DNA of 42,723 nucleotides from Candidatus Saccharimonadota bacterium. GTDB lineage: Bacteria > Patescibacteriota > Saccharimonadia > Saccharimonadales > Saccharimonadaceae. How positions within the stretch are numbered: position 1 is the stretch's first letter; each line of letters starts with the position of its first letter. The stretch covers positions 91,183-133,905 of the forward strand of contig JAFRHO010000005.1 in the NCBI GenBank assembly GCA_017433245.1. The letters run 5' to 3'. The position numbers and the translations under genes were made by a program. Below the pieces are notes generated by a model. That model searched no databases, was not told the origin of the DNA, and saw only the letters and a list, made by a program, of their open reading frames with translations. Below, piece after piece: positions 5,754-35,640 of the stretch.

Positions 5754-7175
5754 TTATTTAGCAATTAGCCATTCGCGTACTAGATTGTCGTCGCTAAAAT
5801 AATACAACCATTTATCATTAGTAATAGCAACAGGGAAGTGGCTTGATACGTTATGCGCGATGACGCGTCGATTCAAACCATCGAAATCATATACTATTAA
5901 ATCACCATTTGAAACCGTATATAGCATATCATTATCTAACCAACCGAAGTGGTCTTCGATTTCCCATTGATGAACTATGGTAGCCTCAAAGTCAACAGTT
6001 GCTAGAGTGTGATCTTTGACAAGGAGCAAAAATTCTCCATCGTGGCCAACTTTAATCGTGTCTGGAACAAACGAAATTGCATATTGCATCGTCTCATCTT
6101 GATAGGCATCCTTTTGATGGACGGTGAGTAAATCTTCATCTAAAACAGCAATGTATTTAGAGTCATAAAACTTACCGATGGCAACTTTGACTGGGTCCTT
6201 AAGCTGTTCGAGTGTAGTAGTTTCGCGGTCTCCTAATTTTAAAAAGCCAACATAGTAACCGGGCATGGTCTTCGGTGCTTCAGTTACACTCTCTCGTGCC
6301 GAAAACACAATTTCGTTATTATAATGATCAAAATCAATCACGTCTTTGACTAAAACAGCAGATAGCAAACGCCCGGGGATGTCAATCTTGTGCAAGTTGT
6401 GATTCTGTACAGCAATGAGCGTATTGGAATTATTGTCCAGAATTTCAACACGCGAGAAGTCGGCGCCGAATTCCTTGGTTAAATTGATGCTTTTGGTGGC
6501 GTTGTTGATATCAAGTAGAACCCATTCGACCGCTTCGCCGTTACGCGCCTCAATAAGAACATGAGAAGCATCATAATCCCAGTCCAAGTCGATTATCTCG
6601 TCGGTAAGAACTCCTACTTTGGCATCATCAGCTAAACTAACACCTGAAAATAGAGTAGAAATGTCGATTTTACGAGGGGTAGGATTATCAGTGTCAAGGT
6701 CCACATAAGCCCACTCCGAAGTACTATTAATGAGTAAAACTGCGTTGTGATCGGAGGAGATAGAAGCGTCGGTGTATTTACTAGTGTCAATCAATGATTC
6801 CAACTGGCGTTCTTTTAAAAAAAGCCTGGGATAATGAAGGCGATAGAGGAGACCCTCGGCAATATTGACTTCTTTAGACCATGAATCGTATCCATCTTTG
6901 GTTAGCTTAATGGTATGAGAACCGCTAGTCAGGATTTTGGAAGAATTGGTGCGTTCGAGCCATGAAGAAACTTGACCATCAATTTCAACGCTAGCACCGG
7001 TGGGGATAGAAGCGATTTGTAGCATCCCGTTACGCTCAATCTCAAAATTAGAATTTAACCAGTATCCTGATACCAATAAAGCCAAAACAATAACCGTAAT
7101 AATTACAGCAATAACCATGAATGCTTCGGAGATGATTACTTTGATGTTTTGTTTTTTGAATTGTTCCGGATTCAT
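5754..7175 (-). CDS. PEGA-domain membrane protein with propeller-like exterior
   Basis: Extracytoplasmic protein of 473 aa with one N-terminal membrane helix (about residues 14-35, VIAVIITVIVLALLVSGYWL). A PEGA domain follows at about 48-110 (IASIPTGASVEIDGQ...GSHTIKLTKDGYDSWSKEV). The remaining 350 residues have repeating short beta motifs (for example VLLINSTSEWAYVDLD, HVLIEARNGEAVEWVLLD), suggesting a beta-propeller-like fold; this is inference. Its stop is 12 bases from that of the sortase gene, which converges on it, with no terminator between. An extended -10 (TGCTATACT) lies 9 nt before the ATG. The precise role is unknown; PEGA proteins are generally envelope-associated. Confidence 0.82.
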   Translation of the reverse strand: MNPEQFKKQNIKVIISEAFMVIAVIITVIVLALLVSGYWLNSNFEIERNGMLQIASIPTGASVEIDGQVSSWLERTNSSKILTSGSHTIKLTKDGYDSWSKEVNIAEGLLYRLHYPRLFLKERQLESLIDTSKYTDASISSDHNAVLLINSTSEWAYVDLDTDNPTPRKIDISTLFSGVSLADDAKVGVLTDEIIDLDWDYDASHVLIEARNGEAVEWVLLDINNATKSINLTKEFGADFSRVEILDNNSNTLIAVQNHNLHKIDIPGRLLSAVLVKDVIDFDHYNNEIVFSARESVTEAPKTMPGYYVGFLKLGDRETTTLEQLKDPVKVAIGKFYDSKYIAVLDEDLLTVHQKDAYQDETMQYAISFVPDTIKVGHDGEFLLLVKDHTLATVDFEATIVHQWEIEDHFGWLDNDMLYTVSNGDLIVYDFDGLNRRVIAHNVSSHFPVAITNDKWLYYFSDDNLVREWLIAK

Positions 7176-7213
7176 GTTATATATAGTATAGCATGTTTTC
7201 CAAAAATTAACTC

Positions 7214-7242
7214 TTGCATTTTCAAATCAACAATAGTATGAT
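7214..7242 (+). promoter_or_regulatory. Sigma-70-type promoter of the 7267 gene
   Basis: TTGCAT and TATGAT are separated by 17 bp. The predicted transcript start is about 18 nt before the ATG and leaves a GAGG ribosome binding site in the leader. Confidence 0.65.
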
Positions 7243-7266
7243 AGATATAAGAATAAGCGAGGTAAT

Positions 7267-8142
7267 ATGCAAAGGACTGATGGTGTAGCTAAATCCACAC
7301 AACGACAAGTGAAGAGTTCGACGACTCTAAATCGTAGATATGTAAAGCGTCCAGTAAGTAGGGTAGATAATACTGTTAGTGTTGCAAGAAGCTCGAGAAT
7401 CCAACATTTCAAGAATGAACCAGCTTCAAATATGGTTCAAGTCAAAATCGTCAACGCAAAAGAGCCACAAGAAACTATACAACGCCATCCATTACAAACT
7501 TCAGCAATAAACCGTATGCAAAGAATTCGCTCACAACAAATAACGTCAAATAATCAGGAAGAAAACAAAATGACAGCCAAAGAAATCAAAGATCAAGCCA
7601 TCCAGAAGGCGCTCGCTAGCGCTGCTACGGTAGAACAGAGCGATTCCGGTCAGAAGACTAAGAAGATGAGCAAAATGCATTTTGGGTTTGGGCGAGTTGC
7701 TTTAGCACTATCTTGTGCAGCAATAGTTGCGCTTGCAATTGTATACTTCGTCAACCTCAATATGCCTGATATATCACTAAGAGTAGCAGCAATGCAAACT
7801 GGTATTAATGCATCGTATCCTGGCTATGTGCCTCGGGGCTATGCTGTTTCAAGTATTACGTCAGAAAGCAAGAAAATTGTATTAGATTTTAAAAACGGTG
7901 AAGATGAAGGGATGTTTACCCTTACAGAAGAGACTTCTTCGTGGGATTCTAATGCTTTGCTAAATAATTACGTGAAGACGACCTACGGAGATAATTACAA
8001 AACCGTCAAAGAACAAGGTCTGACTATTTATATCAATGGTAGCGACGCGGCTTGGGTGAATGGTGGGGTGTTTTATAATATTACCGCAAAGAATGGTATT
8101 CTAACCAACAAACAAATCTGTTCGATTGCGACTTCATTATAG
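7267..8142 (+). CDS. Membrane-anchored protein, DUF4367-like exterior domain
   Basis: Protein of 291 aa whose function I do not recognise. Residues 1-140 are basic, Gln/Ser/Thr-rich and probably disordered in the cytoplasm. One membrane helix (VALALSCAAIVALAIVYFVNL) lies at about 148-168. The exterior domain at about 175-291 begins YPGYVPRGYAVSSITSESKKIVLDF and continues with MFTLTEETSSWDS and IYINGSDAAWVNGGVFYNI, a pattern typical of DUF4367/YdhH-like domains that follow an anti-sigma-type membrane anchor. The ATG has GAGG upstream. Its stop faces gltX across a shared terminator. It may be a transmembrane sensor or anti-sigma-like protein, but no anti-sigma motif is visible at the N-terminus. 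Confidence 0.8.
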   Translation: MQRTDGVAKSTQRQVKSSTTLNRRYVKRPVSRVDNTVSVARSSRIQHFKNEPASNMVQVKIVNAKEPQETIQRHPLQTSAINRMQRIRSQQITSNNQEENKMTAKEIKDQAIQKALASAATVEQSDSGQKTKKMSKMHFGFGRVALALSCAAIVALAIVYFVNLNMPDISLRVAAMQTGINASYPGYVPRGYAVSSITSESKKIVLDFKNGEDEGMFTLTEETSSWDSNALLNNYVKTTYGDNYKTVKEQGLTIYINGSDAAWVNGGVFYNITAKNGILTNKQICSIATSL

Positions 8143-9644: not shown

Positions 9645-10721
9645 TTAGATCATTTCTTCTTCGTCTTCATCGTCGTCATCGTCGCGTTTAGCGATAATGA
9701 AGAAGATGATACCCGCAGTAGCAGCAGTGGCAGCGGTAGCGGCAAGTCCGAGAGGAAGCATCGAGCCTTCTTCTACAATGTTGGTCTGGGTAGATACACT
9801 CACACCTTGAGCGGCTGCATAAGAGTCGCGATTATCGCCAGCACTTACTTCAGTTGTAGTAGTTGTGGTTCCAGCACCGCTGTTAGTGGACCTAGTAGTG
9901 TAAACGGTGGTACCATGAGAACCACTTACGCCTGTACCGGTTGTGGAATTGGTGCCGGTATAAACGGGGAAATTGTCGCCAGGATTTGGATCAGTGCCTG
10001 GAGTGACTGGGTTGGTTGGCGTAATCGGGTTAGTCGGATTACTACCAGAGTCAATTACACCGGTAACTACGCTAATAACAACCGTGTTACGATAAGTACC
10101 GGCTGGTTTGTCGGTGTTTGCTTTGGCACCGAAATAGATACTCTGGGTACCACTTTTGACGCCTGAGGCAGCTTCAAGGATTTTAATCGGAGTAGAAGTA
10201 CTAGTGGTAAGTGGATAATAAGTACTACTAGTATTACCAGCGTCGGTCTCGCCGTAGGTTTTACCATCTAATGAAGAAGATTTGAGCGAATAGCCCCACG
10301 TATTGACTGGGAAAGAGCCGCGCGTAGCGCTGCTGCTCATGGTCGGAATATAGTAAGATGAGCCCAGCATAGTATGAGTAAGATTAGTATCACTTCGAGA
10401 ATACATAGATGCAGTAAAACCATTAGTTACGTTGGAGTTTACTGAAACATCAACAGTATTACGGAGAAACTCATTCACATCACCAGTCGCACCGGTAGTG
10501 GGCGCGGTGACCGCTACGGCGATAGAATCCTGCACATTAATCTGGAAAGTCGCGTTTTGGGTAACGGCAGAAGTGTCGCTGGATGGAAGAGAGGCAAAGC
10601 TGGATGCAATAGCCCAAGCAGAAAGTGCTAAAACAGCAACTATACTAGCATAAGTTTTTTTATGATATGTAGCCTCAAGCAACAAAGCCCGAAGGTTTTT
10701 ATTAAAAACATTTTTGTTCAT
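9645..10721 (-). CDS. Surface protein with C-terminal membrane anchor and acidic tail
   Basis: Probable cell-surface protein of 358 aa. The N-terminus is a signal or anchor segment (YASIVAVLALSAWAIASSFA, about residues 25-44). A beta-rich Ser/Thr domain follows at about 55-228, with the pattern NVTNGFTASMYS ... WGYSLKSS ... AGTYRNTVVISV. The same pattern occurs in the N-modules of the 13-18 kb proteins and at the start of the 38 kb giant, so these may share a fold. A Pro/Thr/Asn linker (PTNPITPTNPVTPGTDPN) and a Thr-rich stretch precede a C-terminal helix (LGLAATAATAATAGIIFFII) and the tail KRDDDDDEDEEE. There is no LPXTG before the helix, so sortase anchoring is not supported. It lies 20 nt upstream of gltX on the same strand. 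Confidence 0.82.
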   Translation of the reverse strand: MNKNVFNKNLRALLLEATYHKKTYASIVAVLALSAWAIASSFASLPSSDTSAVTQNATFQINVQDSIAVAVTAPTTGATGDVNEFLRNTVDVSVNSNVTNGFTASMYSRSDTNLTHTMLGSSYYIPTMSSSATRGSFPVNTWGYSLKSSSLDGKTYGETDAGNTSSTYYPLTTSTSTPIKILEAASGVKSGTQSIYFGAKANTDKPAGTYRNTVVISVVTGVIDSGSNPTNPITPTNPVTPGTDPNPGDNFPVYTGTNSTTGTGVSGSHGTTVYTTRSTNSGAGTTTTTTEVSAGDNRDSYAAAQGVSVSTQTNIVEEGSMLPLGLAATAATAATAGIIFFIIAKRDDDDDEDEEEMI

Positions 10722-10883
10722 TTGCGTATGACCTTTATTGTTCTGTATCTATATTAGCATAAGAAAAATCATAAGTAAATAGTTTTTTTCAAAAAATTGC
10801 TATTTTTTATTAAAAACAATGAAATTGTGGAAAAAACTTATGTTTTTGTATATAATATATAGTAGCTTAATGTGGAGCAAATA

Positions 10884-12179
10884 ATGGATAAAACAAACGA
10901 TACTGTAACGAATGAAGAACTAGCGGCAGCGTTCGGAGGAGGAGAACCACTGACACCTAATGGTCAACTTAAAAGTGACGATGATTCTAAACAGACTAAA
11001 AAGTCTGGAATAAAGCATCAATGGGACAAATTAATGATTTGTTTTTATGTGGTTGGAGGGGTTAGCCTTGTTGGTGGTGTCGCAATGCTACTATTTAGTT
11101 TGTTGGTTCCACCGGAAGCGATTAGCCCCGTAAACTATCCTGATTTAACAAAAAAGGATAGCAAGACTGTAGTGTATAGCGATTTAACTGGTGAGATTAT
11201 GACCGATGCTTCACTTAAGACAGCGCCAGCCTATTGTATCCAGACCCCCAACGGTATGGATGGAGCACGACCACATGCAGGTTTAGACCAGGCTGGAGTA
11301 GTGTTTGAAGCGATTGCAGAATCTGGCATTACAAGGTTTGCGGCGATTTACCAAAATCCGACAGCATCTATCATTGGCCCGATTCGATCTTTACGTATTT
11401 ATTATTTGCAATGGGATACGCCGTTTGATTGTACAATTGTGCATGCTGGAGGATCGGATGACGCGTTAGCGGCCGTTTCGCGTGGTGGATATAAAGATTT
11501 GTCTGAGGATTATAACTATATGTATCGGGGTACTTATACCTCAAGATTGTGGAACAATCTCTTTACCTCAGCAGCTGCCTTGAGGCGTTATAGCAATGAC
11601 CATGGTTATACAGCTTCAGAGATTAAGGGCTTTACGCGGATGACTCCAGAAGAAAGTAGCCGGATAAGAGTGGAAGATTTAGTGACCGAAAAGCTCGTAA
11701 TCACCCAACCGAGCAAGGGTGATACTTCAGGATTGAATCCCAAAACCTCTAGTATTAATTTCCGATTAGGGGGTTGGGGTGACTTTAATGTACATTATGA
11801 ATACGATGCTAATAGTAATAAATACTTCCGCAGTTATGAATCTGGTGCAGAGCATAATGCGTATACTTGTCCGGAAAGCGACAATGAGGGTAGTAACCCG
11901 GAAGACGCCTGTACTTTAACCCAAATAGCGCCTTCGGTAGTAATTGCGATGATGGTATCAGAGAGACGAGCATCCGACAACTACCATGAGGATATCGATG
12001 CGATTGGGTCTGGCAACGCTTATGTGTTCCAGAATGGTACTGCTATACGCGGGACTTGGCAAAAGGCCTCCGCCGAATCGCAAATACAATTTCTTGACTC
12101 GGAGGGAAAAGAAATCCGCTTAGCACCTGGACAGACTTTCATTACAGCCGTCCCTAATTACGGAAGTGTTGACTTTTAA
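10884..12179 (+). CDS. DUF3048 domain protein, membrane-anchored
   Basis: Extracytoplasmic protein of the DUF3048 (YerB-like) family; its biochemical role is unknown. I choose the ATG at 10884 (431 aa), because GGAG at 10874-10877 lies 6 nt before it; the in-frame GTG at 10872 overlaps that site. A cytoplasmic N-terminus of about 45 residues precedes one membrane helix (MICFYVVGGVSLVGGVAMLLFSLLV). The conserved DUF3048 segments are ARPHAGLDQAGVVFEAIAESGITRFAAIYQ, GPIRSLRIYYLQWDTPFDCTIVHAGGSDDAL and, near the C-terminus, YVFQNGTAIRGTWQK followed by LAPGQTFITAVP. The tRNA-Glu promoter overlaps its stop codon. Confidence 0.92.
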   Translation: MDKTNDTVTNEELAAAFGGGEPLTPNGQLKSDDDSKQTKKSGIKHQWDKLMICFYVVGGVSLVGGVAMLLFSLLVPPEAISPVNYPDLTKKDSKTVVYSDLTGEIMTDASLKTAPAYCIQTPNGMDGARPHAGLDQAGVVFEAIAESGITRFAAIYQNPTASIIGPIRSLRIYYLQWDTPFDCTIVHAGGSDDALAAVSRGGYKDLSEDYNYMYRGTYTSRLWNNLFTSAAALRRYSNDHGYTASEIKGFTRMTPEESSRIRVEDLVTEKLVITQPSKGDTSGLNPKTSSINFRLGGWGDFNVHYEYDANSNKYFRSYESGAEHNAYTCPESDNEGSNPEDACTLTQIAPSVVIAMMVSERRASDNYHEDIDAIGSGNAYVFQNGTAIRGTWQKASAESQIQFLDSEGKEIRLAPGQTFITAVPNYGSVDF

Positions 12180-12240: not shown

Positions 12241-12317
12241 GGTTCCGTCGTCTAGTGGTCCAGGACGTCTGGTTCTCATCCAGAAAATCGCGGGTTCGAC
12301 TCCCGCCGGAATCACCA
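12241..12317 (+). tRNA. tRNA-Glu(CTC)
   Basis: The acceptor stem is GGTTCCG with CGGAATC (one G-T pair), the D arm contains CTAGTGGTCCAGGAC, the anticodon stem TCTGG/CCAGA closes the loop TTCTCAT (anticodon CTC, codon GAG), and the T arm contains GGTTCGACTCC. The CCA end is encoded at 12315-12317. Confidence 0.95.
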
Positions 12318-12326
12318 AGCATAAAA

Positions 12327-12352
12327 AGAAGCCCTTTAGGGCTTATTTTAAT
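12327..12352. terminator. Terminator between tRNA-Glu and the FISUMP remnant
   Basis: AAGCCC pairs with GGGCTT around TTTA. On the plus strand ATTTTA follows; on the minus strand CTTTTT follows, so it can serve both directions. Confidence 0.75.
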
Positions 12353-12389
12353 ATCGTCTTGTGGTTTTTATGGAAAACGAAGGTATAAA

Positions 12390-13135
12390 CTAGTATACTG
12401 TCACACACCTTATGCTGAGACCATTATATTTCCACCCAGTTTCAGTACCTGGCAACACATTGGGGCTCGAGCCTATACTCAAATAATACGCACTCCAGTA
12501 TTGCACAACTGAAGTTTTGTAGGCGGAAGACGACCAGTAACTAGCTACACGACCTCTTCTGTATATAGTTGAAGCGCTAATCCAACCAGCTCGAATAAAG
12601 TTGTTCGGGAAAGCTGTCAATTTCATCTCAGCCGTAGAATCAGTTGCATTAGAGTTATTATTAAGAACGTAATTGAGATTGTAAAAACCGCCAGGAAGTA
12701 GGCCATTGCCAGTACCTCTACCATATGGGATTCTCCAGCCAGATGGACATATCGACGTATTAGCAGTTTCAGAAGTATTGTTGTTTGCATCAATGCTATC
12801 TGGACCAGCGTAAGCAATTGTGTTTGCTAACGCGGCTGACCAAGTATAATAGTTCCCAAAACTATATATACCGCCATCGGCAGTTTGATCTGCGAAGATG
12901 TCGCTAGTTGGATTAGATACTCTCGATTGAGTATTGATATTATTATAACGTGGCATACGATAAGCTGGATAATTTGTAGCACCAATGTTTATACTAGCGC
13001 TTCCTGACTGAGCACTAGAAATATATGTTGCGTAGGTGGTTTCTAGTTTAGCACCTAGGGTAGTATTAGTGGTTGCTGGATTTGTAGTGTTTGAGTTATA
13101 CTGTGCTACTTTAGTGTAAACGTCTGGTACTACAT
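12390..13135 (-). pseudogene. Headless FISUMP surface-protein remnant or silent cassette
   Basis: An open frame on the minus strand runs from 13135, right after an in-frame TAG, to a stop at 12390, but the natural start is missing. Its first about 44 residues (PDVYTKVAQYNSNTTNPAT...YATYISSAQ) match the end of the N-module of the two genes upstream: 13009-13137 aligns without gaps to 14412-14540. It then jumps in frame into the middle of a FISUMP domain (NIGATNYPAYRMPRYNNINT ... YSFGNYYTWSAALANT ... SICPSGWRIPYG ... YWSSSAYK ... SIRCVTVY). The early FISUMP part (KRDNKSYTITKLADGRVWMTQNL in the neighbour) is absent. The longest ATG-started piece is 12390-12956, 188 aa, without signal peptide. 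It is either a decaying duplicate or an unexpressed donor for recombination. Confidence 0.75.
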
Positions 13136-15028
13136 GCTATTGTTACCATACCACACTCTGACTATACAACGCACCGATCCCCCATCGCCGCGATAGATGT
13201 TAATCGAATTACCGTAAACTTTTTTATCGTAACCAATACTGGCGCTTTCTGCCCACTCTTCGTTAAAGGCATCCGACGACCAAAAATAGCCATGATCGCC
13301 AATCCCCTGCAAGGAATCCGAGCTAGATACATATCCGCTAAGATTATAATACATTGGTTCTAGATAGGCAGTATAGTTATTACTGAGCGTTTGGGTATAG
13401 CTGCTCCTACCGTAAGCGATGAAGAGTTTGTCCTGATCACGGCCGAACGGTAAGGTCCAGCCTGATGGGCAGATAGATTGATAGACCGAGCCGGTCTGGT
13501 CACTACTATCATTTAGAGCAACCGCCGTCGTCCAATTATAATAATTGCCCAGATGATACTGTTGGATCCCATTCGTTGCGGTATTGACAGAGGAAATGTC
13601 TGACGGTCTTAACGATTCGTCACATACTTCAAATGTGGCATCGCAACTGCCGATATATGCTTTCCATTCATCGTTGAGTGCTGTATAAAGTGAGTCGTCA
13701 CACGCTCCTTGACTGATGCACATTTGGGCGTAAAGAGAAGCTAGTATAGTCTGTCGATAGAACCCTGTAGGGTCTGACGGAAGTAAAACAAAGTCACAGT
13801 CATTACTAGTATGATTACAGCTATCGACGAAAGTCTTCCAATCATCTGTTAATAAGGCATACTCCTTGTCATTGCATGAGCCATTTCCACAGCTTGTCAT
13901 ATATCTCGATGCCGTAGAGAACATCTCTCGCCAAGCCGCAGTTTCGCCAGTGTAATCTCTCCAGTATAAATCTCCCGGATCGTAAGATTCCGGTGTATTA
14001 TTGGAACCAATCCAGGTGGTATCATTCGTTGAGCGGGTTGATGTACTGGGTGTCCATGTAGCTGGTCCATATTTGCCTGTTTTACTATTAAAACCTAAAT
14101 CAGTATCATCATTAGTGTAAGTCACATTGGAGTCTAGGTCTAAATCTAAGTTTTGTGTCATCCAAACTCTACCATCAGCTAATTTAGTAATGGTGTAGGA
14201 TTTGTTATCACGTTTATCTATAAGGGTGTATTGTTGTTCTAACGTCATAGTATCGTCAATTTGGTCACCATTGGGTCCTGCGAAGTCTTGCATACAGACG
14301 GCTTCCGAGATGGTAGAGGCGTTTGGATTGCAACTTATATTTGTAGGTGGGATTGCATTATATGGATGCACCATAGTATATTTAACCTGTCCGGTGTACG
14401 TATCAGCAGCCTGAGCACTAGAAATATATGTTGCGTAGGTGGTTTCTAGTTTAGCACCTAAGGTAGTATCAGTGGTTGCTGGATCTGTAGTGTTTGAATT
14501 ATACTGTGCTACTTTAGTATATACGTCTGGTACTGTATGCCAGGAATTAAAACTGTTTTGGATAGACATGTTGTCTGGATTATAAGTGATTGGATCTCCT
14601 GATACTGGATTATCTACTTTAGTTACTTTCATGGACCAGTTAGAGTCTGTATCACCACTAGTATAGACTTTGGTAGATATAGTTAGGTTAGTGTTTTGTC
14701 CAATGAGTTTAGTATGGGTTTCTCCTTCGTATAAGTCACCTGTGAAGCCTATAGCATAGACTGAGAAACCATTATTATCATTACAGAAAGTAGTGAGAGT
14801 GGTCTTTCCGATACCGGCTTCATAGTCACTGCCGCTTGCTCCTGAATAAGTGCCTGGTTTGATAGAGGCATTGTGGCTAGTTTGCCCAGTGCCACCCATA
14901 GTACAAGCGAATGGGACAGTGAGTTCTACAGTATCTATGACTTCGGTGGCGAAGGAGGTGAGAAAAGAGGAGAGAACTATACCACTCAGAATAGTTATGG
15001 GCAATAACATACGTATAGCTTTGGCCAT
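13130..15028 (-). CDS. Secreted FISUMP-domain surface protein, paralog 1
   Basis: Secreted protein of 632 aa. The signal peptide is MAKAIRMLLPITILSGIVLSS... ending near FATEV. The N-module (about 28-222, EVIDTVELTVP to YTMVHPYN) is almost identical to that of paralog 2. It is followed by a FISUMP domain (TIGR02145 type: TLIDKRDNKSYTITKLADGRVWMTQNLDL, YHLGNYYNWTTAVAL, SICPSGWTLPFG, YFWSSDAF, GSVRCIVRVW). Between the YDPGD and YHLGNYYNW parts there is an insertion with two similar 4-cysteine repeats (about 398-482). The ATG lies 1 nt after the stop of paralog 2, so the two are probably co-transcribed. There is no LPXTG and no C-terminal helix. Role probably surface display or adhesion; binding partner unknown. 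Confidence 0.85.
   Translation of the reverse strand: MAKAIRMLLPITILSGIVLSSFLTSFATEVIDTVELTVPFACTMGGTGQTSHNASIKPGTYSGASGSDYEAGIGKTTLTTFCNDNNGFSVYAIGFTGDLYEGETHTKLIGQNTNLTISTKVYTSGDTDSNWSMKVTKVDNPVSGDPITYNPDNMSIQNSFNSWHTVPDVYTKVAQYNSNTTDPATTDTTLGAKLETTYATYISSAQAADTYTGQVKYTMVHPYNAIPPTNISCNPNASTISEAVCMQDFAGPNGDQIDDTMTLEQQYTLIDKRDNKSYTITKLADGRVWMTQNLDLDLDSNVTYTNDDTDLGFNSKTGKYGPATWTPSTSTRSTNDTTWIGSNNTPESYDPGDLYWRDYTGETAAWREMFSTASRYMTSCGNGSCNDKEYALLTDDWKTFVDSCNHTSNDCDFVLLPSDPTGFYRQTILASLYAQMCISQGACDDSLYTALNDEWKAYIGSCDATFEVCDESLRPSDISSVNTATNGIQQYHLGNYYNWTTAVALNDSSDQTGSVYQSICPSGWTLPFGRDQDKLFIAYGRSSYTQTLSNNYTAYLEPMYYNLSGYVSSSDSLQGIGDHGYFWSSDAFNEEWAESASIGYDKKVYGNSINIYRGDGGSVRCIVRVWYGNNSM
14360..14944 (-). 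repeat. 585-bp near-identical N-module repeat, copy A
   Basis: Aligns without any gap to 15816-16400 at a constant offset of 1456. Mismatches are scattered and few by eye. Sequence outside both ends differs completely. Confidence 0.9.
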
Positions 15029-15029
15029 T

Positions 15030-16487
15030 TTATGGTTCTTCCCATTTATTGATGGTTATTCCGACATCGGTTTCTACATATGTTATACCAGTATGAATTG
15101 GTGCCGCAACTGTATATGTCCGAAGTGTCTTGCCAGTAACCTCATACCCATCAAGAGTCACCCACATTGGTATAGCATTATACACCCCAGCTGCCATCAA
15201 AACACTTAAATCACCGCAGTACAGAACACGTACGACATCGTTATCAACCACTCCTTTATTGCCAAACATAGAACCTGGAGTATATGGTTCGCCTCCAAAT
15301 GTTATCTTTTTCACAACTTTCCTTTGCGTGTACTCGCCATCTAACTTAATATGAGCGTCCGAATAATTTCTATCGTCAATGGCAGATATAAGGTATACAT
15401 ATGTTAAATTACCGGTGCCAGTATGATAATAATAGTGATAAAAATTCTGCAGATATCCGTCAGGCACCTCTTTAACATAATACGTAGCCTCATTCTCTGG
15501 CGTAAAGTTAGCAGCATCGGTATACTGAGCATTTTCCAGTGGCCATATTATATTCGCTCCGTCATATGTAGTAGTGCTGTTCGAATAACTAAAATCTTCA
15601 AACCATGGAACAATATTCTTGTAGTAACCACCGTATAGCTTGCCAGGCGTCAATTTGTCATAAAGCCCATCTTCGGTACCCAAGAGATTATAAGTACCAC
15701 TTTCAGGGAGTTCCGACATACGGATTTTAACAGGGTTTTCTTGGCCGGGTTCAGTAGAAACCGGGCGTCCTGTATAGAAAACCTGGAAATATGGTGCTTC
15801 AGGAGCACGACGATCATATGGATGAACCATAGTGTACTTAACTTGTCCAGTATACGTATCAGCAGCCTGAGCACTAGAAATATATGTTGCGTAGGTGGTT
15901 TCTAGTTTAGCACCTAAGGTAGTATCAGTGGTTGCTGGATCGGTAGTGCTTGAATTATACTGTGCTACTTTAGTATATACGTCTGGTACTGTATGCCAGG
16001 AATTAAAACTGTTTTGGATAGACATGTTGTCTGGATTATAAGTGATTGGATCTCCACTTGCTGGATTATCTACTTTAGTTACTTTCATGGACCAGTTAGA
16101 GTCTGTATCGCCACTAGTATAGACTTTGGTAGATATAGTTAGGTTAGTGTTTTGTCCAATGAGTTTAGTATGGGTTTCTCCTTCATATAAATCTCCTGTA
16201 AAGCCTATAGCATAGACTGAGAAACCATTATTATCATTACAGAAAGTAGTGAGAGTAGTTTTTCCAATACCGGCTTCGTATTCACTGCCACTTGCTCCCG
16301 AATAAGTGCCTGGGTTAATAGAAGCATTGTGTGAAGTAGTACCTACCCCGCCCATAGTACAGGCGACTGGGACGGTAAGTTCTACGGTATCTATGACTTC
16401 ATTATCTTCGGCTATGGCAAGGGAAGAGGAGAGGGCTATACCGCTAAGTATAGTCATGGACAATAATACAGGCAGACCTTTGTTCAT
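15030..16487 (-). CDS. Secreted surface protein with shared N-module and unique C-terminus, paralog 2
   Basis: Secreted protein of 485 aa. I choose the ATG at 16487 (MNKGLPVLLSMTILSG): TGCTATAAT ends exactly 6 nt before it, and this start gives a clean signal peptide, whereas the longer in-frame start at 16526 adds a non-signal tail. The N-module (EVIDTVELTVPVACTMGG ... YTMVHPY) matches paralog 1 nearly residue for residue. The C-terminal about 270 aa (from DRRAPEAPYFQVFYTG) are Tyr/Asn-rich with beta character and show no FISUMP domain; I recognise no family there. Thus the same head carries a different body. Probably leaderless mRNA that continues into paralog 1. Confidence 0.83.
   Translation of the reverse strand: MNKGLPVLLSMTILSGIALSSSLAIAEDNEVIDTVELTVPVACTMGGVGTTSHNASINPGTYSGASGSEYEAGIGKTTLTTFCNDNNGFSVYAIGFTGDLYEGETHTKLIGQNTNLTISTKVYTSGDTDSNWSMKVTKVDNPASGDPITYNPDNMSIQNSFNSWHTVPDVYTKVAQYNSSTTDPATTDTTLGAKLETTYATYISSAQAADTYTGQVKYTMVHPYDRRAPEAPYFQVFYTGRPVSTEPGQENPVKIRMSELPESGTYNLLGTEDGLYDKLTPGKLYGGYYKNIVPWFEDFSYSNSTTTYDGANIIWPLENAQYTDAANFTPENEATYYVKEVPDGYLQNFYHYYYHTGTGNLTYVYLISAIDDRNYSDAHIKLDGEYTQRKVVKKITFGGEPYTPGSMFGNKGVVDNDVVRVLYCGDLSVLMAAGVYNAIPMWVTLDGYEVTGKTLRTYTVAAPIHTGITYVETDVGITINKWEEP
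15816..16400 (-). repeat. 585-bp near-identical N-module repeat, copy B
   Basis: Partner of copy A. The left boundary is where the protein bodies diverge (after YTMVHPY) and the right boundary is just after the signal peptide. Confidence 0.9.
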
Positions 16488-16493
16488 ATTATA

Positions 16494-16502
16494 ATTATAG
16501 CA
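16494..16502 (-). promoter_or_regulatory. Extended -10 of paralog 2
   Basis: TGCTATAAT on the minus strand, 6 nt before the ATG at 16487. Confidence 0.7.
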
Positions 16503-16535
16503 TAATTCTTGTGGTTTAAAGAACAAAGTTACGGT

Positions 16536-18434
16536 TTAAGACTTTGTGGCAACACAACGAACGGTTCTTCCTATACGTTTATAAAAATCGTAGTTAATTC
16601 CTGGATAAAAAGAACTTGTACTGGAATTGTAGTAATTTATTGCACATGAAGAATTTGTGCTTGCAGCTGTAGAAACCCAGTATTGTCCTCTTGTGCCACG
16701 GTTGTCAATTGAACCACCACTTAAATTCCCACTAAAAACAAAGTTGTTAGGAAAATGATGGAGCCTAAATATCATCACAACCTGTGTAGGAGTAGTATTG
16801 CCATCCATTTTTTGTGGTACATTATTGGCGTTTTTGTATCCACCAAGGCTATTAGTTAATAAACCAAATTCGCCTGGGCTTGTAGCTCCGGCCGTATTCC
16901 CAGTAGGCATATGCCATCCAGAAGGACAAATATCTCCCACGGCGTTACCACTCGACTTACTACGCGTGCCTCTTCCTGCTGTTGCAGAATACCAATTATA
17001 ATAGTGCCCGTAACTGTAAATTGAAGTCCTGTTATTGGTTGGATTAGTAGCTCTACTTGTTGTATTGGTAGTATTCAATCTAGATTGATCAACACATTCC
17101 TCATCATTGGTACCACACCATCCTTCCGGGGCCGTGTCAGCATTATACGCTATACTTGAACTAGGAGACAGTGTGCTGTGAGTCTCCGTATCAGTATAAT
17201 TATGCTTCAATGTGACGGTTGTACCATCACTAAGTGGATTATTAGTGTTGGAGGGTGTTAATACCGCAGTATTGCCTAATCTTATGTTTTCAATCATCCA
17301 GCATTTACCGTCTGAAAGTTTCGCAATCGCATAGGTTTGGCCATCACGATCGTCGGTCAACGCCGAGACGCTGTCTAGGCCCGCCGTGATAGACCAGTCA
17401 TATTGGTTCTCTGAATTGCCAGTATATACGGGTTGAACGAGACTTCCGGTGCCTGTACCACAAAGTTGGGAAACTTTGGTTGAATCTTGAAAAGAACCTT
17501 GTGTTTTAATCCATATTGCATAGAGAGATAGACCATTATTAGTGCCTGATTCACCACTGTATTGTCCCTCCGCAAAGGTAATATAGTCGTTTGGACCATA
17601 AAAATGTGCATTAGCATTAGTCTCATAATCAAACACATCGCTCCAGCCTGCAAACCCGTAGCCAGTTCTGGAAAAATTACTCGCTAAGAGGATGGCTGAG
17701 GTGGAGGTAGTATCAGTAGAACTGCCGAGCGTTTGGCACCCCATAGTGCCTTCCGCAAAATTAGTGTTAGCATAGTAGCAAATCTTGCCAGAGGCTGTGG
17801 GTTGTGGTGCAGCGGCCATTTCGTTGTATGGGTGCACTAAAGTATATTTCACTTGTCCCACATAGGTGCCGGCTGACTGAGTGGGAGAGATGTAGGCTTG
17901 GTAGGTAGATTTTAAGGTAGAACCTTCTGCGTTTATACCGATATCGGTACCGGAAGTGCGTTCAGCAACTTTGGTATATTCATTTGGTATATTATGGAAG
18001 GAATCAAAACTATCCTGAATAGTGAGAGGATATGTGGGGGTTGGGTTGGTGACGGTAGATAGTTTCATGGCCCAGTTGGAAGTAGGGCCAGAAGTAGAAG
18101 TGCCAGTGATAATATCGTTAGTACTGTCTATGGAAGAATCAGTAAGGACAGTTTTACCATATTCATCATCGGTAAAACCTATGGCGTAAATAGAGAAGCC
18201 ATTATTATCATTACAGTAGGCTTTCATGATTGTTTCACCTATGGCTGAGTTAGATTCTGTATTTTGGAGTTCAGTAACGTGAGAATCCATGCCAGTACCC
18301 GATAGTGTACAGGAAATAGGGATAGTGACGTTGACTTCGTCTGTAACCGTGTCGTTGTCGGCGTAAGTTGAGTGTAAGAAAAGAGTGCTAAATAGTAGTG
18401 TTATAGCCAAATGTTTGAACGCTCTTTTGTCCAT
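16536..18434 (-). CDS. Secreted FISUMP-domain surface protein, paralog 3
   Basis: Secreted protein of 632 aa. The signal peptide is MDKRAFKHLAITLLFSTLFLHSTYA. The N-module (about 27-205) is a diverged version of that in paralogs 1 and 2, with the same landmarks: PISCTLSGTG, YCNDNNGFSIYAIGFT, SNWAMKL, DSFHNIPNEYTKVAE, AGTYVGQVKYTLVHPYN. An InlB-like repeat follows (ICYYANTNFAEG ... FSRTGYGFAGWSD ... LSLYAIWIK), then a complete FISUMP domain (LTDDRDGQTYAIAKLSDGKCWMIENIRL, YSYGHYYNWYSATA, DICPSGWHMPTG, GQYWVSTAAS, GRTVRCVATKS). TGCTAAAAT ends 6 nt before the ATG, so the mRNA is probably leaderless. No anchor is visible at the C-terminus. Confidence 0.86.
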   Translation of the reverse strand: MDKRAFKHLAITLLFSTLFLHSTYADNDTVTDEVNVTIPISCTLSGTGMDSHVTELQNTESNSAIGETIMKAYCNDNNGFSIYAIGFTDDEYGKTVLTDSSIDSTNDIITGTSTSGPTSNWAMKLSTVTNPTPTYPLTIQDSFDSFHNIPNEYTKVAERTSGTDIGINAEGSTLKSTYQAYISPTQSAGTYVGQVKYTLVHPYNEMAAAPQPTASGKICYYANTNFAEGTMGCQTLGSSTDTTSTSAILLASNFSRTGYGFAGWSDVFDYETNANAHFYGPNDYITFAEGQYSGESGTNNGLSLYAIWIKTQGSFQDSTKVSQLCGTGTGSLVQPVYTGNSENQYDWSITAGLDSVSALTDDRDGQTYAIAKLSDGKCWMIENIRLGNTAVLTPSNTNNPLSDGTTVTLKHNYTDTETHSTLSPSSSIAYNADTAPEGWCGTNDEECVDQSRLNTTNTTSRATNPTNNRTSIYSYGHYYNWYSATAGRGTRSKSSGNAVGDICPSGWHMPTGNTAGATSPGEFGLLTNSLGGYKNANNVPQKMDGNTTPTQVVMIFRLHHFPNNFVFSGNLSGGSIDNRGTRGQYWVSTAASTNSSCAINYYNSSTSSFYPGINYDFYKRIGRTVRCVATKS

Positions 18435-18440
18435 ATTTTT

Positions 18441-18504
18441 ATTTTAGCATAAAAGATATGGAATAGGAATATGGTTTGCTTATTTCAGAGAAATATGGTA
18501 CTAT
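18441..18504. promoter_or_regulatory. Divergent extended -10 elements for paralog 3 and der
   Basis: Minus strand: TAAAAT at 18441-18446 with TG at its extended position. Plus strand: TACTAT at 18499-18504 with TGG before it. Each ends exactly 6 nt before its start codon. Confidence 0.7.
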
Positions 18505-18510
18505 ATAAAC

Positions 18511-19938
18511 ATGAAAAGATTGCCGATTGTAGCGTTGATAGGACAGACAAATGCTGGAAAATCTAGCATTTTAAATCGCATGGCGCATAAAAATATCGCC
18601 ATAGTGGCACGCGAAGAGGGAACCACGCGGGATAATGTAGTGGCTACGATTGATGATTCCTTCATCTTGGCAGATACGGCTGGTCTCAAGGACCCGAACG
18701 ATGATTTCGAGGCATCAATTCAAGAGCAAATCCAAGATGCTATCGAAAGCGCCGATGTAATCTTGGTGACATTAGATTCTTCTAAGTATTTCAATCATCG
18801 GGATGCCAAGATTGCTAAAGATGCCTTGCGCTCTCAGAAACCTGTATTTTTGCTGCTAAATAAATGCGATTTGGCTGAGTCGTTACCGATTGAGGAATTC
18901 CGAGCACTTGGGATTTCGCCCGAACGAATATACTATATTTCGGCAACAACTGGCCAAGGCGTTGCGAGTTTAAAAGAGGGCTTAAGTGGCTCCCTGAGGG
19001 AATTACGGAGCGCGGCAGCGCAAGTTATAGTACCGGTTCCCCGTGACGGCGGGCCGGCCGAACGCGACCCCAAAAAAGCCATTAAACCATCATTGAAGGT
19101 CGCATTAATTGGTCGGCCGAATGTAGGGAAATCGAGTCTATTTAATGCGCTCGGACGCAAGCAACAAGCGATTGTTAGTTCAAGACAGGGTACAACTCGG
19201 GACGTGAATCGAGTGCAGGTAAAGTATAAGGGTAGAGAGCTGGAAATACTAGACACCGCAGGCTTGCGCAAGCCGGGTAAACGCGAGGTAGGGATTGAGA
19301 AATTCAGTGCCATTCGTACGCTAGCTGCAATTGAAGAGTCTGATATTTGCTGTTTACTGGTGGATTCGACGGAGCCACATAGCAAGCTCGATCAGTCCCT
19401 TGCAGGCCAGATTGTTGAGGCCGGGAAGGGAATTATTATGGTGGTGACGAAGTCGGATTTGCTCGAGAATGCTGAGCCGACTAATTATTTCGGCGAAGAG
19501 AATGTCGGCAATCGTACGGCGGCGGATTTCTTAATCGATCAGCTGGAGAAGGACTACGATTTTCTACCTTACGCGCCCGTAGTACTAACCTCATCAGAGA
19601 CCGGCGAAAACGTAACCCAGTTGTTTGAACTGGCACTTCAGATAGACGAAGCACGCCATACCGAAATTAGAACGGCGGATCTGAATAAGATTCTAAATGA
19701 GGCCATCGTGTCGCATCCACCGGCGGGGCTCAAAAACACGCGCCCAAAGCCAAAGTACATTGTGCAGACCGATATCTGCCCACCGTGGTTTGTGGTGCAT
19801 GGGCATGATTTAGGGCTACTTCACTGGTCATGGAAGCGATTCCTAGAACGCAAGGTTCGAGAAAAATACCCGTTCATTGGTACACCGATTAAGTTCTCCT
19901 ATCGGAGCGACAACAACAGAGGCGAAGTTGACAAATAG
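18511..19938 (+). CDS. der: GTPase Der (EngA), ribosome assembly
   Basis: Essential double-GTPase that helps assemble the 50S subunit. 475 aa, within family range. The first G domain has GQTNAGKSS (G1, about 9-17), DTAGL (G3) and NKCD (G4). The second has GRPNVGKSS (G1, about 201-209), DTAGL and TKSD. The C-terminal KH-like domain is present (HPPAGLKNTRPKPKYIVQTDICPPWFVVHGHD ... FLERKVREKYPFIGTPIKFSYR). A short basic/Pro linker with PKKAIKP joins the two G domains. There is no ribosome binding site; the extended -10 ends 6 nt before ATG. Confidence 0.97.
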   Translation: MKRLPIVALIGQTNAGKSSILNRMAHKNIAIVAREEGTTRDNVVATIDDSFILADTAGLKDPNDDFEASIQEQIQDAIESADVILVTLDSSKYFNHRDAKIAKDALRSQKPVFLLLNKCDLAESLPIEEFRALGISPERIYYISATTGQGVASLKEGLSGSLRELRSAAAQVIVPVPRDGGPAERDPKKAIKPSLKVALIGRPNVGKSSLFNALGRKQQAIVSSRQGTTRDVNRVQVKYKGRELEILDTAGLRKPGKREVGIEKFSAIRTLAAIEESDICCLLVDSTEPHSKLDQSLAGQIVEAGKGIIMVVTKSDLLENAEPTNYFGEENVGNRTAADFLIDQLEKDYDFLPYAPVVLTSSETGENVTQLFELALQIDEARHTEIRTADLNKILNEAIVSHPPAGLKNTRPKPKYIVQTDICPPWFVVHGHDLGLLHWSWKRFLERKVREKYPFIGTPIKFSYRSDNNRGEVDK

Positions 19939-23083: not shown

Positions 23084-24031
23084 TTAAATCAGGCTCCAAT
23101 TATTCATCCCTAGGGGTCTTACGCGGCTCTTGATTTCCAAGAGAGTAATGGTTTCATTAAAGACTTCTGGCGGGAGATGAGTGGCGTTCATTATCTCTTC
23201 GCCTTTCCGTAGTCCATTTGCTAACCCCTGAAGAATCTTTGTTTCTACATCGGTATCACCAATCAGATTTAACTGTTTATGCTTCTTATGACGTCGGGAA
23301 TACATATCGGGGAACAGATCTCTTAGAATGTCATCCGGCTCAGTGTAGGGAATAGCGCCTTGCTTGATGAGCTTATTGCAACCCTGAGAGTATGGATTTG
23401 TAATATTACCAGGTACGGCAAAGACGGTTTTGCCTTGTTCGATGGCATGAGTGGCGGTATTGAGGGAGCCAGATCGTTCAGCTGCTTCTACTACGACTAC
23501 GATATCAGAAAGGCCAGAGATGAGACGATTGCGTTCTAAGAAGCTAGTCTTGGGGAACGGATGCGTTCCTGGTGCGTATTCCGAGATAATGGTGCCGTTT
23601 TGTTCAATTATCTTTCTCGCGACAGCCTCATGGGGCTTTGGATAGATATTGTCAATTGCCGTACCAAGTACCGCCACTGTAATACCGCCCCCATCGAGAC
23701 ACCCTTGGTGTGCTATGGTGTCGATCCCATACGCAAGACCAGATACCACCACCACGCCGCGTTTGCCTAATTCATAGGCTAGTTTATAAGCGACTTCCTC
23801 GCCATACTTGGTATTATGCCTTGAGCCAACAATAGCGACCGTTTTGGGTCTTGTTGTTCGGGTTTGTTCGGGTTTTTGGCTAGGCCCTTTTGACACATTT
23901 TCTGGCATTTTACCACGAAAATACAATGTTTTTGGCTTAAGCGCAATGGCTTCTAACACCTCTGTAAAATTGCTTTCTAGGGGTGAAATTTGGTTGATTT
24001 TTGTAAAAAAGTGTGAAAAAGGTGTTGACAT
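23084..24031 (-). CDS. dprA: DNA-processing protein DprA
   Basis: Protects incoming single-stranded DNA and loads RecA during natural transformation. I choose the ATG at 24031 (315 aa) because AGGAG lies 7 nt upstream; the longer GTG start at 24085 has no site. The Rossmann core is clear: TVAIVGSRHNTKYGEEVAYKLAYELGKRG, VVSGLAYGIDTIAHQGCLDGGG, AVLGTAIDNIYPKPH, ISEYAPGTHPFPKTSFLERNRLISGLSD, VVVEAAERSGSLNTATHAIEQGKTVFAVPG. A C-terminal winged-helix-like part follows (about 245-310). DprA is common in CPR and fits a lifestyle of DNA uptake. Confidence 0.95.
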   Translation of the reverse strand: MSTPFSHFFTKINQISPLESNFTEVLEAIALKPKTLYFRGKMPENVSKGPSQKPEQTRTTRPKTVAIVGSRHNTKYGEEVAYKLAYELGKRGVVVVSGLAYGIDTIAHQGCLDGGGITVAVLGTAIDNIYPKPHEAVARKIIEQNGTIISEYAPGTHPFPKTSFLERNRLISGLSDIVVVVEAAERSGSLNTATHAIEQGKTVFAVPGNITNPYSQGCNKLIKQGAIPYTEPDDILRDLFPDMYSRRHKKHKQLNLIGDTDVETKILQGLANGLRKGEEIMNATHLPPEVFNETITLLEIKSRVRPLGMNNWSLI

Positions 24032-24100
24032 ATTTTTTCTCCTGTGATATAATTGAGTCAGTTGGTACGAAAAATCGTGCCACACCGCACCTAAATAAGT

Positions 24101-32982: not shown

Positions 32983-33147
32983 ATGTATCTATTTATTTTT
33001 ATTTTACTTGTAATTATTTTAATATTACAGATTTCTATTTTATCTACTTGTGCTGATATTAATGATAATATTCTTGATATTGAGCGTTCTATTCGTCAGT
33101 TACCTCGTCAATTTATGCGTTTTATCGATAGAAGGAGATTGAAGTGA
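32983..33147 (+). CDS. Phage small membrane protein
   Basis: Protein of 54 aa: an N-terminal hydrophobic helix (MYLFIFILLVIILILQISIL) then a charged tail (INDNILDIERSIRQLPRQFMRFIDRRRLK). I choose ATG 32983, 1 nt after the previous stop, with AGGAG in the end of the previous gene. Its TGA overlaps the GTG of the next gene. It may be a second minor coat or an assembly factor. Confidence 0.7.
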   Translation: MYLFIFILLVIILILQISILSTCADINDNILDIERSIRQLPRQFMRFIDRRRLK

Positions 33148-33863
33148 GATGGATTCGCTTATTTATTTCTTCTTCGGTTTTATTATTGTCTATTTTGTTG
33201 TTTCCATTGTTTTACGGCGCTGATGTATCTGCTACTTCTGTTTCTTGTTCTGGTACTTTACCTTCTTCTTTTAATCCTGGTAGTGGATTTAATTATACTT
33301 CTAATTGTGATCTTTCTTCTCTTTCTTCTGGTCGTTGGTATTATTATTTTAGTTTTATTCCTTCGTCTGGTAATTCTTCTACTACTAACTCTGTTAATGT
33401 TTGTTTTGCTGTAGCCAATAATCGTTCTTGTTCTAGTACTACTGTTTCAAATAATGATTTGGTTCATTATTTAGTAAATGATTTTAATAGATATGCTTCT
33501 AATCCGTCTTTTTCTTATTTTTTTACTTCTTCTTCTCAGTTGATTTATTTGATTTCTAATAATATATCTTTTTCTGTTCCATTTACTTATTCTGCTGTTA
33601 TTTCTGATGTTAATCCTTTTGTTACTTCTGACTGTCCTCCTCTTCCTTCTGGTTCTTTTTCTATTTCTTCTAATGGTGAATATGATATTTCTGATTATGC
33701 TTCTGTTTCTGTTGATGTTCCGCAAACTATTGGTCCTATTTCTGATGATTCTATTTCTAAGATTATTTTTGCCATTTTTTGTATTCCTGCTACGATTCTT
33801 GTTGTTTATTTCTTTTATTGTATTTATCGTATGATTATTAAATCGACCGGGGGCTGGTCATGA
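33144..33863 (+). CDS. Phage secreted protein, minor coat or adsorption candidate
   Basis: Protein of 239 aa. It starts with GTG (33144) overlapping the previous TGA, with AAGGAG 7 nt before. A signal peptide (RWIRLFISSSVLLLSILLFPLFYGADVSA) is followed by a Ser/Asn/Tyr-rich exterior and a C-terminal membrane helix (IIFAIFCIPATILVVYFFYCIYRMII) with a short basic end. Several Cys are spaced in the exterior. Signal peptide plus C-terminal anchor is the pIII topology. Two such proteins in a row suggest one is the receptor-binding tip and the other a partner. Confidence 0.75.
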   Translation: MRWIRLFISSSVLLLSILLFPLFYGADVSATSVSCSGTLPSSFNPGSGFNYTSNCDLSSLSSGRWYYYFSFIPSSGNSSTTNSVNVCFAVANNRSCSSTTVSNNDLVHYLVNDFNRYASNPSFSYFFTSSSQLIYLISNNISFSVPFTYSAVISDVNPFVTSDCPPLPSGSFSISSNGEYDISDYASVSVDVPQTIGPISDDSISKIIFAIFCIPATILVVYFFYCIYRMIIKSTGGWS

Positions 33864-35368
33864 AAGGAGTAAAAAAATGCTTTGGTCCATTGTTAGCCTT
33901 TGCCATCATGCTTGGGTTGTCATTAAGCGTATATTTAGACACTAGTGCTCTTAAGCATGATGTTCAGTATATTCCTATTTCTTCTGATTCTGCTGCTGTT
34001 GCTGGTTCTACTAATGGTTCTAATCGTAATCCTAGTTTTGAAATTACTTGGCTTTCTGCTGATGCTCCTGATCAGAATATTAATAGGGGTACTAATCATT
34101 ATTTTACTTCTCGTCTCTCTAATAATAAATGTACTTTTGTAAATTATTCTGACATTTATACTTCTACTCCATCTTATACCACTTATCCTATTGCTCAGTT
34201 TACTTATGGTTTTGATTCTTATCGTTATAATTATTTATCTGAGTCTGGTTATCCTGGTTCTTTTGATTCTATTATTTGTAATCAGACTGTTCCTTTTGGT
34301 ACTTTGTATTCTTCTCAATCTAATTTAGATTCTCACCCTAATTTTGATGATTCTTCTCTTAATAATATTCCTCCTTTAGACCGTCCTCCTTATTCTGCTT
34401 TGCTTCCTTATTATTATGATTTTGACTCTTTTTATGCTCATGATACTGCCATTGATACTAATACTGGTATTACTTATAATCAGACTCTTAAACTATCTGA
34501 AATAGTTGGTCATGCTCCTAATAAGTTTAATTCTCTTACTATTCCTCTTGGTCGGCCTAATGAGTCTGTTGGTACTATTACGCAAGGTCGTCAAGTTAAA
34601 TTACAGGGTGTTTTTGATTTTTCTGGTCCTGGTAATACTTTTACTTGGAATTCTGATTTATCTTCTGCTTATTTTCGATTATATTATGCTGGTTTAACTG
34701 AATCTCAATCAATTACTGATACTAATTCTAATTCTGGTGGTTATGTTGATTGTACTACTAATTTTATTTCTTTGCCTGCTAATGATTTTTATCAATTAGA
34801 GTATACTTGTGATTTAACTTCTCCTACTACTTTCTATAATGGCCAACTTTGGTTTTATTTGAAATTCTATAACCCGTATGGTTATTTATTTGATACTAAT
34901 GCTGATTGGTCTTTTGGTTCTACTTTCTTTATTACTGATAATGATGATACTCCTGGTGGTACTTGGGGTACTGCTCCTACTGGTAATAATCTTTCTAAAG
35001 CCCCTGGTTCTGCTCAGGCTTTAATTCCTTCTAATGATGATTGGTTTTCCTCTCTTTCTAATTTGTTTTCTTTTGGTTTTTTTAATCCTTTTGCTCCTAT
35101 TTTTCAGATGTTTTCTGACAATAATTCTTGTGCTTCTATTCCTACTATTGCCGGTATGATTCATTCTGAAGAAACCGAAGTTTGTCCTTGGTTTAATTCT
35201 ACTCTTCGTAATATTGTTACTCCGGTTCTTGGTTTATCTTCTATGATGTTAGTGTTTGGTTTTGCTGTTCGTTGGCTTGGTTCTAGGAGTGGTAATTTTA
35301 TTGAAGATAGTGGTGGTTTTGATAGTGGTGGTTATCATTTTGAAAATAAATTTAGGAGGAAGAATTAA
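33860..35368 (+). CDS. Phage adsorption protein candidate (pIII-like)
   Basis: Protein of 502 aa; the ATG overlaps the previous TGA. Signal peptide (CFGPLLAFAIMLGLSLSVYLDTSA), a long exterior rich in Ser/Asn/Tyr/Thr without recognised domains, then a C-terminal membrane helix (TPVLGLSSMMLVFGFAVRWLG) and a Gly/Ser-rich tail ending FENKFRRKN. Size, topology and place just before the pVI-like and pI-like genes match pIII, which binds the host pilus or surface and ends assembly. It probably sets which cells the phage can enter. Confidence 0.78.
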   Translation: MKGVKKCFGPLLAFAIMLGLSLSVYLDTSALKHDVQYIPISSDSAAVAGSTNGSNRNPSFEITWLSADAPDQNINRGTNHYFTSRLSNNKCTFVNYSDIYTSTPSYTTYPIAQFTYGFDSYRYNYLSESGYPGSFDSIICNQTVPFGTLYSSQSNLDSHPNFDDSSLNNIPPLDRPPYSALLPYYYDFDSFYAHDTAIDTNTGITYNQTLKLSEIVGHAPNKFNSLTIPLGRPNESVGTITQGRQVKLQGVFDFSGPGNTFTWNSDLSSAYFRLYYAGLTESQSITDTNSNSGGYVDCTTNFISLPANDFYQLEYTCDLTSPTTFYNGQLWFYLKFYNPYGYLFDTNADWSFGSTFFITDNDDTPGGTWGTAPTGNNLSKAPGSAQALIPSNDDWFSSLSNLFSFGFFNPFAPIFQMFSDNNSCASIPTIAGMIHSEETEVCPWFNSTLRNIVTPVLGLSSMMLVFGFAVRWLGSRSGNFIEDSGGFDSGGYHFENKFRRKN

Positions 35369-35640
35369 TGTTAGATACTGTATTTAATATTTTAAAAGTT
35401 ACTGTTATTGTTGCTATTGCTGCTGTTTTTATGGTTGCTATTACTGGTCTTCTTAATCTCATTACTTCTTTGGTTTTTAGTTCTGTAGTTGGTGAGATTC
35501 TTGCTCTTATTTCAATGTATTTACCTTTTAATGCTTTAAATGTCTTTGGTGCTATTGGAACTGCTACTGTTGCAATTCTTTCCTTTTTAATTGCTAAGAA
35601 GATATTTGACCTTACTTCTTGGAGTGTTTCTGCTGTATGA
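35368..35640 (+). CDS. Phage membrane protein, pVI-like
   Basis: Hydrophobic protein of 90 aa with two or three membrane helices (VTVIVAIAAVFMVAITGLLNL, LVFSSVVGEILALISMYLPF, VFGAIGTATVAILSFLIAKKIF). ATG overlaps the previous stop (TAATG). Position between the pIII-like and pI-like genes and multi-helix form match pVI, the tip partner of pIII. Confidence 0.75.
   Translation: MLDTVFNILKVTVIVAIAAVFMVAITGLLNLITSLVFSSVVGEILALISMYLPFNALNVFGAIGTATVAILSFLIAKKIFDLTSWSVSAV

Follow-up and report, generated by a model that had tools for sequence, protein, structure and literature searches.

Head recombination and body reassortment in a modular, putatively adhesin-like protein family of Saccharibacteria

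A modular gene array beside tRNA-Glu

The whole stretch of DNA under study, referred to as the window (42,723 nucleotides; G000:C13:91183-133905), belongs to a genome of 688,189 bases in 15 contigs that is about 78% complete. Its nearest relatives are Candidatus Saccharibacteria genomes, including RGIG5778 (JAFWIU, from sheep ileum) and SRR1222429_bin.13 (CAMNPZ); they hint at the ruminant gut as the source community. On the minus strand the window carries an array of three genes and a remnant, in the 5' to 3' order g0, g1, g2 and g3' (Table 1). In each of the three genes a signal-peptide-like start is followed by a head that terminates in the motif YT[ML]VHPY and then by a body; g1 begins at an ATG at 16487 with the signal peptide MNKGLPVLLSMTILSGIALSSSLAIA, and g2 begins at 15028. 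In g3', a third copy of the head, cut down to 129 nt and sharing 94% identity with g2, continues in frame into a FISUMP fragment; this copy adjoins the stop codon of g2, and no start codon lies 5' of the head piece.

Table 1. Features of the array, its flanks and the retroelement loci of the same genome (window positions, or positions on contig C2 where so marked).
Feature	Coordinates	Strand	Basis or remarks
der (Der/EngA GTPase)	18511..19938	+	conserved edge of the variable interval
g0, head of second type (YTLVHPY) and FISUMP body	16536..18434	-	first gene of the array; TIGR02145, 57.7 bits
g0 head module	17826..18347	-	protein-level head search
g1, signal peptide, head and non-FISUMP 'KEVP' body (258 aa)	15030..16487	-	body without a known family
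g1 head module	15816..16397	-	head alignment with g2
g1 part of putative gene-conversion tract	15853..16184	-	g1/g2 alignment
g2, signal peptide, g1-type head and FISUMP body (632 aa)	13130..15028	-	TIGR02145, 61.2 bits
g2 head module	14360..14941	-	head alignment with g1
g2 part of putative gene-conversion tract	14397..14728	-	7 differences in about 332 nt; outgroup-head control
g3', head-FISUMP remnant, decayed or silent	12390..13136	-	without signal peptide; TAG immediately before head fragment
Head fragment within g3' (HVVPDVYTK...ISSAQ)	13008..13136	-	121 of 129 nt the same as g2
tRNA-Glu (CTC)	12241..12317	+	ARAGORN; conserved edge, present at the locus in 18 of 18 relatives
DUF3048 protein	10872..12179	+	conserved edge of the variable interval
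Predicted DGR locus 1 (L159)	C2:5454-7357		variable region C2:5454-5669, template 5957-6172, RT 6206-7357
Predicted DGR locus 2 (L160 6380-8555)	C2:44379-46554		variable region 44379-44606, template 45073-45300, RT about 45319-46554

The bodies of g0 and g2 pass the curated TIGR02145 cut-off of 41.65 bits, g3' falls under it at 38.1 bits, and the PF09603 scores (31.2 and 28.9) lie slightly under that family's cut-off of 33.9. The body of g1 matches no family in Pfam or NCBIfam, nor does the head. Among solved structures the sole match of the head was 9i0y, a DUF3992 protein, at a non-significant E of 0.098, and the WxL model PF13731 found no match in this genome or in 19 relatives, while it did match the control, Lactococcus lactis. 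Iterated profile searching with the g1 body seemed to pick up the heads; the direct search gave only insignificant domain hits, with iE values of 1 or more, and this apparent homology was discarded as profile drift. Matches to Prodigiosin, DAXX and similar families were marginal and were set aside as meaningless.

The interval occupied by the array is bounded on one side by der and on the other by tRNA-Glu and the DUF3048 gene. In CAMNPZ (locus L081) it comprises der, a gene in which a head precedes DUF285 repeats, an ortholog of g1, tRNA-Glu and DUF3048, with g2 and g3' absent. In a further 17 genomes in which both flanks are present, the interval is empty in ten, where der and DUF3048 are no more than about 330 bp apart; two others show about 1 kb of sequence lacking any head gene, one contains a lone head-FISUMP gene, and the remaining four contain different genes. 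As the content differs among the 18 relatives, the interval (12241-18511 of the window) is regarded as a variable island, or hotspot, whose arrangement is not fixed between species. The initial annotation had named a single fixed arrangement with even divergence across head and body as the outcome that would speak against it; the comparison of these 18 genomes, made at the species level, revealed no such uniformity, and divergence along the head proved uneven. The DUF285-repeat gene of L081 (4055-5776; PF03382, 3.9e-41) represents a third class of body joined to a head of this family.

Mosaic head and chimeric structure of g2

Between VIDTVEL and YTMVHPY, 44 differences separate the heads of g1 and g2 (92.4% identity). 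The initial annotation had described a gap-free alignment of 585 bp between near-identical heads; the alignment is indeed gap-free, its length is 582 bp (194 codons), and the overall identity is the average of a mosaic. The borders are as sharp as had been claimed, identity collapsing to 23 of 60 bases just before the module and 13 of 60 just after it, and the downstream halves are unrelated, the familyless body of g1 showing no detectable similarity to the FISUMP body of g2. Chance likeness of the two heads is excluded, because the next-nearest full-length head in the genome is only about 70% identical at the DNA level.

Along the module, dS is 0.76 over the first 99 nt, then takes successive values of 0.33, 0.20, 0.04 and 0.04, and reaches 0.39 at the 3' end. 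The inner tract is 98% identical, with 7 differences in about 332 nt as against 31 in the preceding 213 nt, and codons specifying the same amino acid in both genes are identical in 91 of 94 cases in the middle versus 62 of 88 at the edges (p = 9e-7). Over the same regions, comparison with the outgroup heads L080 and L081 reveals no contrast between middle and edges (p = 1.0 and 0.07). We read this pattern as a putative gene-conversion tract of about 330 bp within an older homologous module. The recent conversion of the head that had been suggested from the window is supported in this restricted form, extending not from border to border but over the inner portion, between edges that are old.

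The head tree unites g1, g2, JAF_L080, JAF_L082 and CAM_L081 in one clade with a support of 97. Within it all bodies are of the g1 type except that of g2, which is FISUMP, and the three members from outside the window come from two other species. Heads of the other type, ending in YTLVHP, are present on all ten of the best relatives of the g2 body. As judged from these two sets of relationships, g2 is a head-body chimera in which the head of g1 is attached to a body whose kin carry another type of head, and the body swapping proposed at the outset is seen here. The reverse case is g0, whose head clusters among those of the other type with a support of 99 and whose two nearest body relatives carry g1-like heads. 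Overall, head type and body type are loosely linked (10/2/5/6, p = 0.09); mixed genes are therefore common, and the claim of a swap in g2 rests on the head tree and the body relatives. The first 141 nt of contigs C6 and C11 are identical and form a head end terminating at HPY, beyond which lies a g1-type body in one case and a FISUMP body in the other; this represents a further shared head or else a pair of alleles.

Concerted evolution of heads and their occurrence in the genus

A protein search of the genome returned 37 head matches (about 37 copies), and at least one head was found in 63 of the 100 genus genomes searched, with 0 to 33 or more copies per genome. The g1/g2 pair, originally singled out as a case of head sharing, is real; it is also unexceptional, being one pair among some 37 concertedly evolving heads. 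Inner identical tracts are present in dispersed pairs as well, over about 35 codons in L006/L005 and across the middle in L035/L008. In a run test, none of 2000 permutations was as extreme as the observation for type-A heads and one of 2000 for type-B heads, values that take no account of unevenness in amino-acid constraint. For g1/g2 alone, p was 0.016, uncorrected for multiple pairs. Ortholog pairs were defined as reciprocal-best body matches between this genome and two relatives. In all six pairs of the FISUMP type (6/6), and in both genomes, the head is more similar to that of some paralog within its own genome than to that of its ortholog: heads evolve in concert, while bodies keep their own descent. 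The g1 lineage differs, in that the heads of its relatives are not homogenised as in the FISUMP-type pairs.

These observations bear on two simpler accounts of the array. In the first, g1 was simply duplicated in tandem and the duplicate then received another body, which would leave the head as a passive relic with no continuing exchange. The adjacency of g1 and g2, the affiliation of the g3' head with the same clade, and the sister locus L081, which holds only g1 and one other gene, are all compatible with this. Such a history predicts even dS along the head, rather than the high, very low and again raised values found in successive parts, and does not extend to the inner tracts and concerted evolution of dispersed heads on other contigs; we consider it unlikely. 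Purifying selection alone, acting without recombination to keep heads alike while bodies evolve rapidly, could accommodate the greater conservation of heads across species (for g1, 80-85% amino acid identity in the head and 40-42% in the body). It is scarcely credible as an explanation of a tract whose synonymous sites are nearly identical in a region that diverges freely from outgroup heads; the comparison with those heads gives no sign of strong selection on the nucleotide sequence of the head middle. It also leaves the closest likeness of heads to paralogs in their own genome unexplained.

Modular surface-protein families that evolve by gene conversion and domain shuffling include Borrelia vlsE and Neisseria pilE. 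The present family resembles them in that its constant parts are homologous and its variable parts reassorted, and g3', which combines a head and a body piece in frame but has neither a signal peptide nor a start codon upstream, could be taken as a silent donor cassette serving a single expression site in the manner of pilE/pilS; a second interior head fragment occurs at C10:10517-10657. However, nearly all interior head copies are complete open frames with signal-peptide-like N-termini, and most copies look expressible, in contrast to a system having one expressed copy and others that lack a start or promoter, and no single expression site is evident. The missing head end and body start of g3' are moreover what is expected of a deletion relic. 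It is here also the constant head that is homogenised, while bodies differ. Antigenic variation from silent cassettes is thus a very improbable account of the array.

The genome appears to be a short-read k-mer assembly, as suggested by contig ends with identical 141-mers, and the possibility arises that the chimera and the repeat are artefacts of mis-joined contigs. In keeping with this, 12 of the 30 contig ends fall inside heads (p = 2e-11; contigs C1, C2, C3, C4, C6, C7, C8, C10, C11 and C15), and two ends share an identical 141-mer, a probable trace of the k-mer graph. Nevertheless, the longest exact match between g1 and g2 is 106 nt, shorter than the apparent assembly k-mer of 141, which makes collapse of this pair unlikely; the copies bear distinct differences, and the same kinds of gene are present in independent genomes. 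An artefactual origin is accordingly judged extremely unlikely. The concentration of contig ends in heads suggests that further near-identical heads were probably left unresolved, and that the family is under-counted in an assembly of this kind. The same warning attaches to other short-read genomes of the group, which break within head genes such that their repertoires are under-counted.

Retroelements in sister genes and a proposed mode of diversification

A search of the genome for reverse transcriptase (RT) revealed two genes, both on contig C2 and each beside a head-FISUMP gene (RVT_1 scores 44.2 and 36.7 bits, cut-off 29.6; targets no more than 1 kb away). Mismatches between template and variable region fall at template adenines in 31 of 31 cases at locus 1 (p = 2e-22) and in 21 of 23 at locus 2 (p = 2e-13), and the variable regions are the ends of the FISUMP bodies of head-bearing genes. 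By these adenine-specific pairs and their adjoining RT genes, the loci are classed as two diversity-generating retroelements (DGRs), with putative mutagenic retrohoming activity. They add a second source of variation, which is not visible in the window and was absent from the initial annotation. DGRs are already known to target the FISUMP (Fib_succ_major) domain (PMC4159848) and occur commonly in Patescibacteria (PMC8144416). Among 35 RT regions, comprising 33 selected from head-carrying genomes and the two C2 loci, an adenine-biased repeat pair was found in 30, and the variable region is part of a head-bearing gene in 13; 11 such cases come from genomes of relatives, besides the C2 loci. A third head gene, 35 kb from template 2 (C2:79608-79835), matches that template with 30 mismatches, 19 of them at adenines, and is nearly identical to it over a stretch past the stop codon; this gene is a possible remote target, or else an older copy. 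More decayed matches occur on C2, C6 and C8. The gene beside each RT (L159 7345-8235 and L160 8559-9368, both minus) is a possible DGR accessory gene and matched nothing in Pfam or PHROG.

Neither template, TR1 or TR2, matches the window, and the idea that g0, g2 or g3' is a target was rejected for both; with the genome about 78% complete, a further template could be missing. The sister genes on C2 resemble DGR systems described for Fib_succ_major/DUF1566 (C-type-lectin-like) targets in possessing an RT, a template, adenine mismatches and a variable region at the FISUMP end (PMC4159848; PMC8144416). DGR targets are generally built from a modular N-terminal part joined to a C-terminal domain that varies, and the targets of clade-2 CPR DGRs usually lack a recognisable N-terminal or other conserved domain (PMC8144416). 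The present case differs from those systems in that the window genes match neither template, and in that the N-terminal head belongs to a family of 30-plus copies homogenised by recombination. In comparison with the Fibrobacter FISUMP proteins (TIGR02145/PF09603), the FISUMP bodies of g0 and g2 and the large paralogous set in the genome are points of likeness, while the phylum is another one and the domain is attached here to a Saccharibacteria head without a match in Pfam or NCBIfam.

These findings are most readily reconciled, in our view with good probability, by a modular adhesin-like family diversified through head recombination, reassortment of bodies and, for some members, DGRs. The array genes and g3' belong to a large family of presumably secreted or surface-located proteins of Saccharibacteria. 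Its members are built from a signal peptide, a head of about 195 amino acids that is conserved and has a likely role in display or anchoring, and an exchangeable body that is mostly FISUMP, otherwise of the g1 type or composed of DUF285 repeats. Likeness of heads at the DNA level would permit homologous recombination between copies, perhaps by a RecA/DprA-type agent and possibly still active, to overwrite stretches of head by gene conversion; recombination at the module border would on occasion join a head to a different body, g2 being such a chimera. The array itself is located in a variable interval beside tRNA-Glu. In other members, DGRs would rewrite the end of the FISUMP body, leaving a constant head with a changing tip. 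The head may act as common carrier and the body as the part facing outside, with variable contact with a partner bacterium, or evasion of phages, as the likely role. A gene for DprA is located in the window (23084-24085), and natural competence has been studied in the Saccharibacteria strain TM7x (PMC12206443).

A more elaborate, two-stage scheme, in which DGRs write variants of the FISUMP end in a few master genes and head-driven recombination archives and reuses them across about 35 loci, is a speculative extension to which we assign a rather low probability. The gene at C2:79608-79835 and the decayed relatives on C2, C6 and C8 would, under it, be stored copies.

Partner recognition by Saccharibacteria is largely obscure. 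Type IV pili account for only part of partner binding, and a contribution by additional adhesins acting at close range has been proposed (PMC12206443). The head family, which occurs in 63 of the 100 genus genomes searched and carries DGR-diversified bodies, provides concrete candidates. The idea that a streamlined genome devotes several percent of its length to a recombining surface repertoire is testable. Together, head recombination and DGRs would vary the surface shown to partner bacteria or phages.

Elsewhere in the window, the minus-strand gene at 9645-10721, conserved next to gltX in relatives, encodes a protein of no known family that is putatively surface-located, having a signal at its N-terminus and a membrane-anchor-like C-terminal end. 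A protein of at least 1444 amino acids (38244-42722, minus strand), whose gene runs past the window edge, has two FISUMP domains and Listeria-Bacteroides repeats and lies outside the head family. The plus-strand segment 33144-37614 has the appearance of an integrated filamentous-phage-like element, comprising two secreted or membrane proteins without known family (33144-35368), a Zot-like ATPase at the cut-off (35619-36320; 20.1 vs 20.3 bits) and a replication protein (36847-37614; REP_ORF2-G2P, 2.8e-12; PHROG rolling-circle initiation, 1.5e-16).
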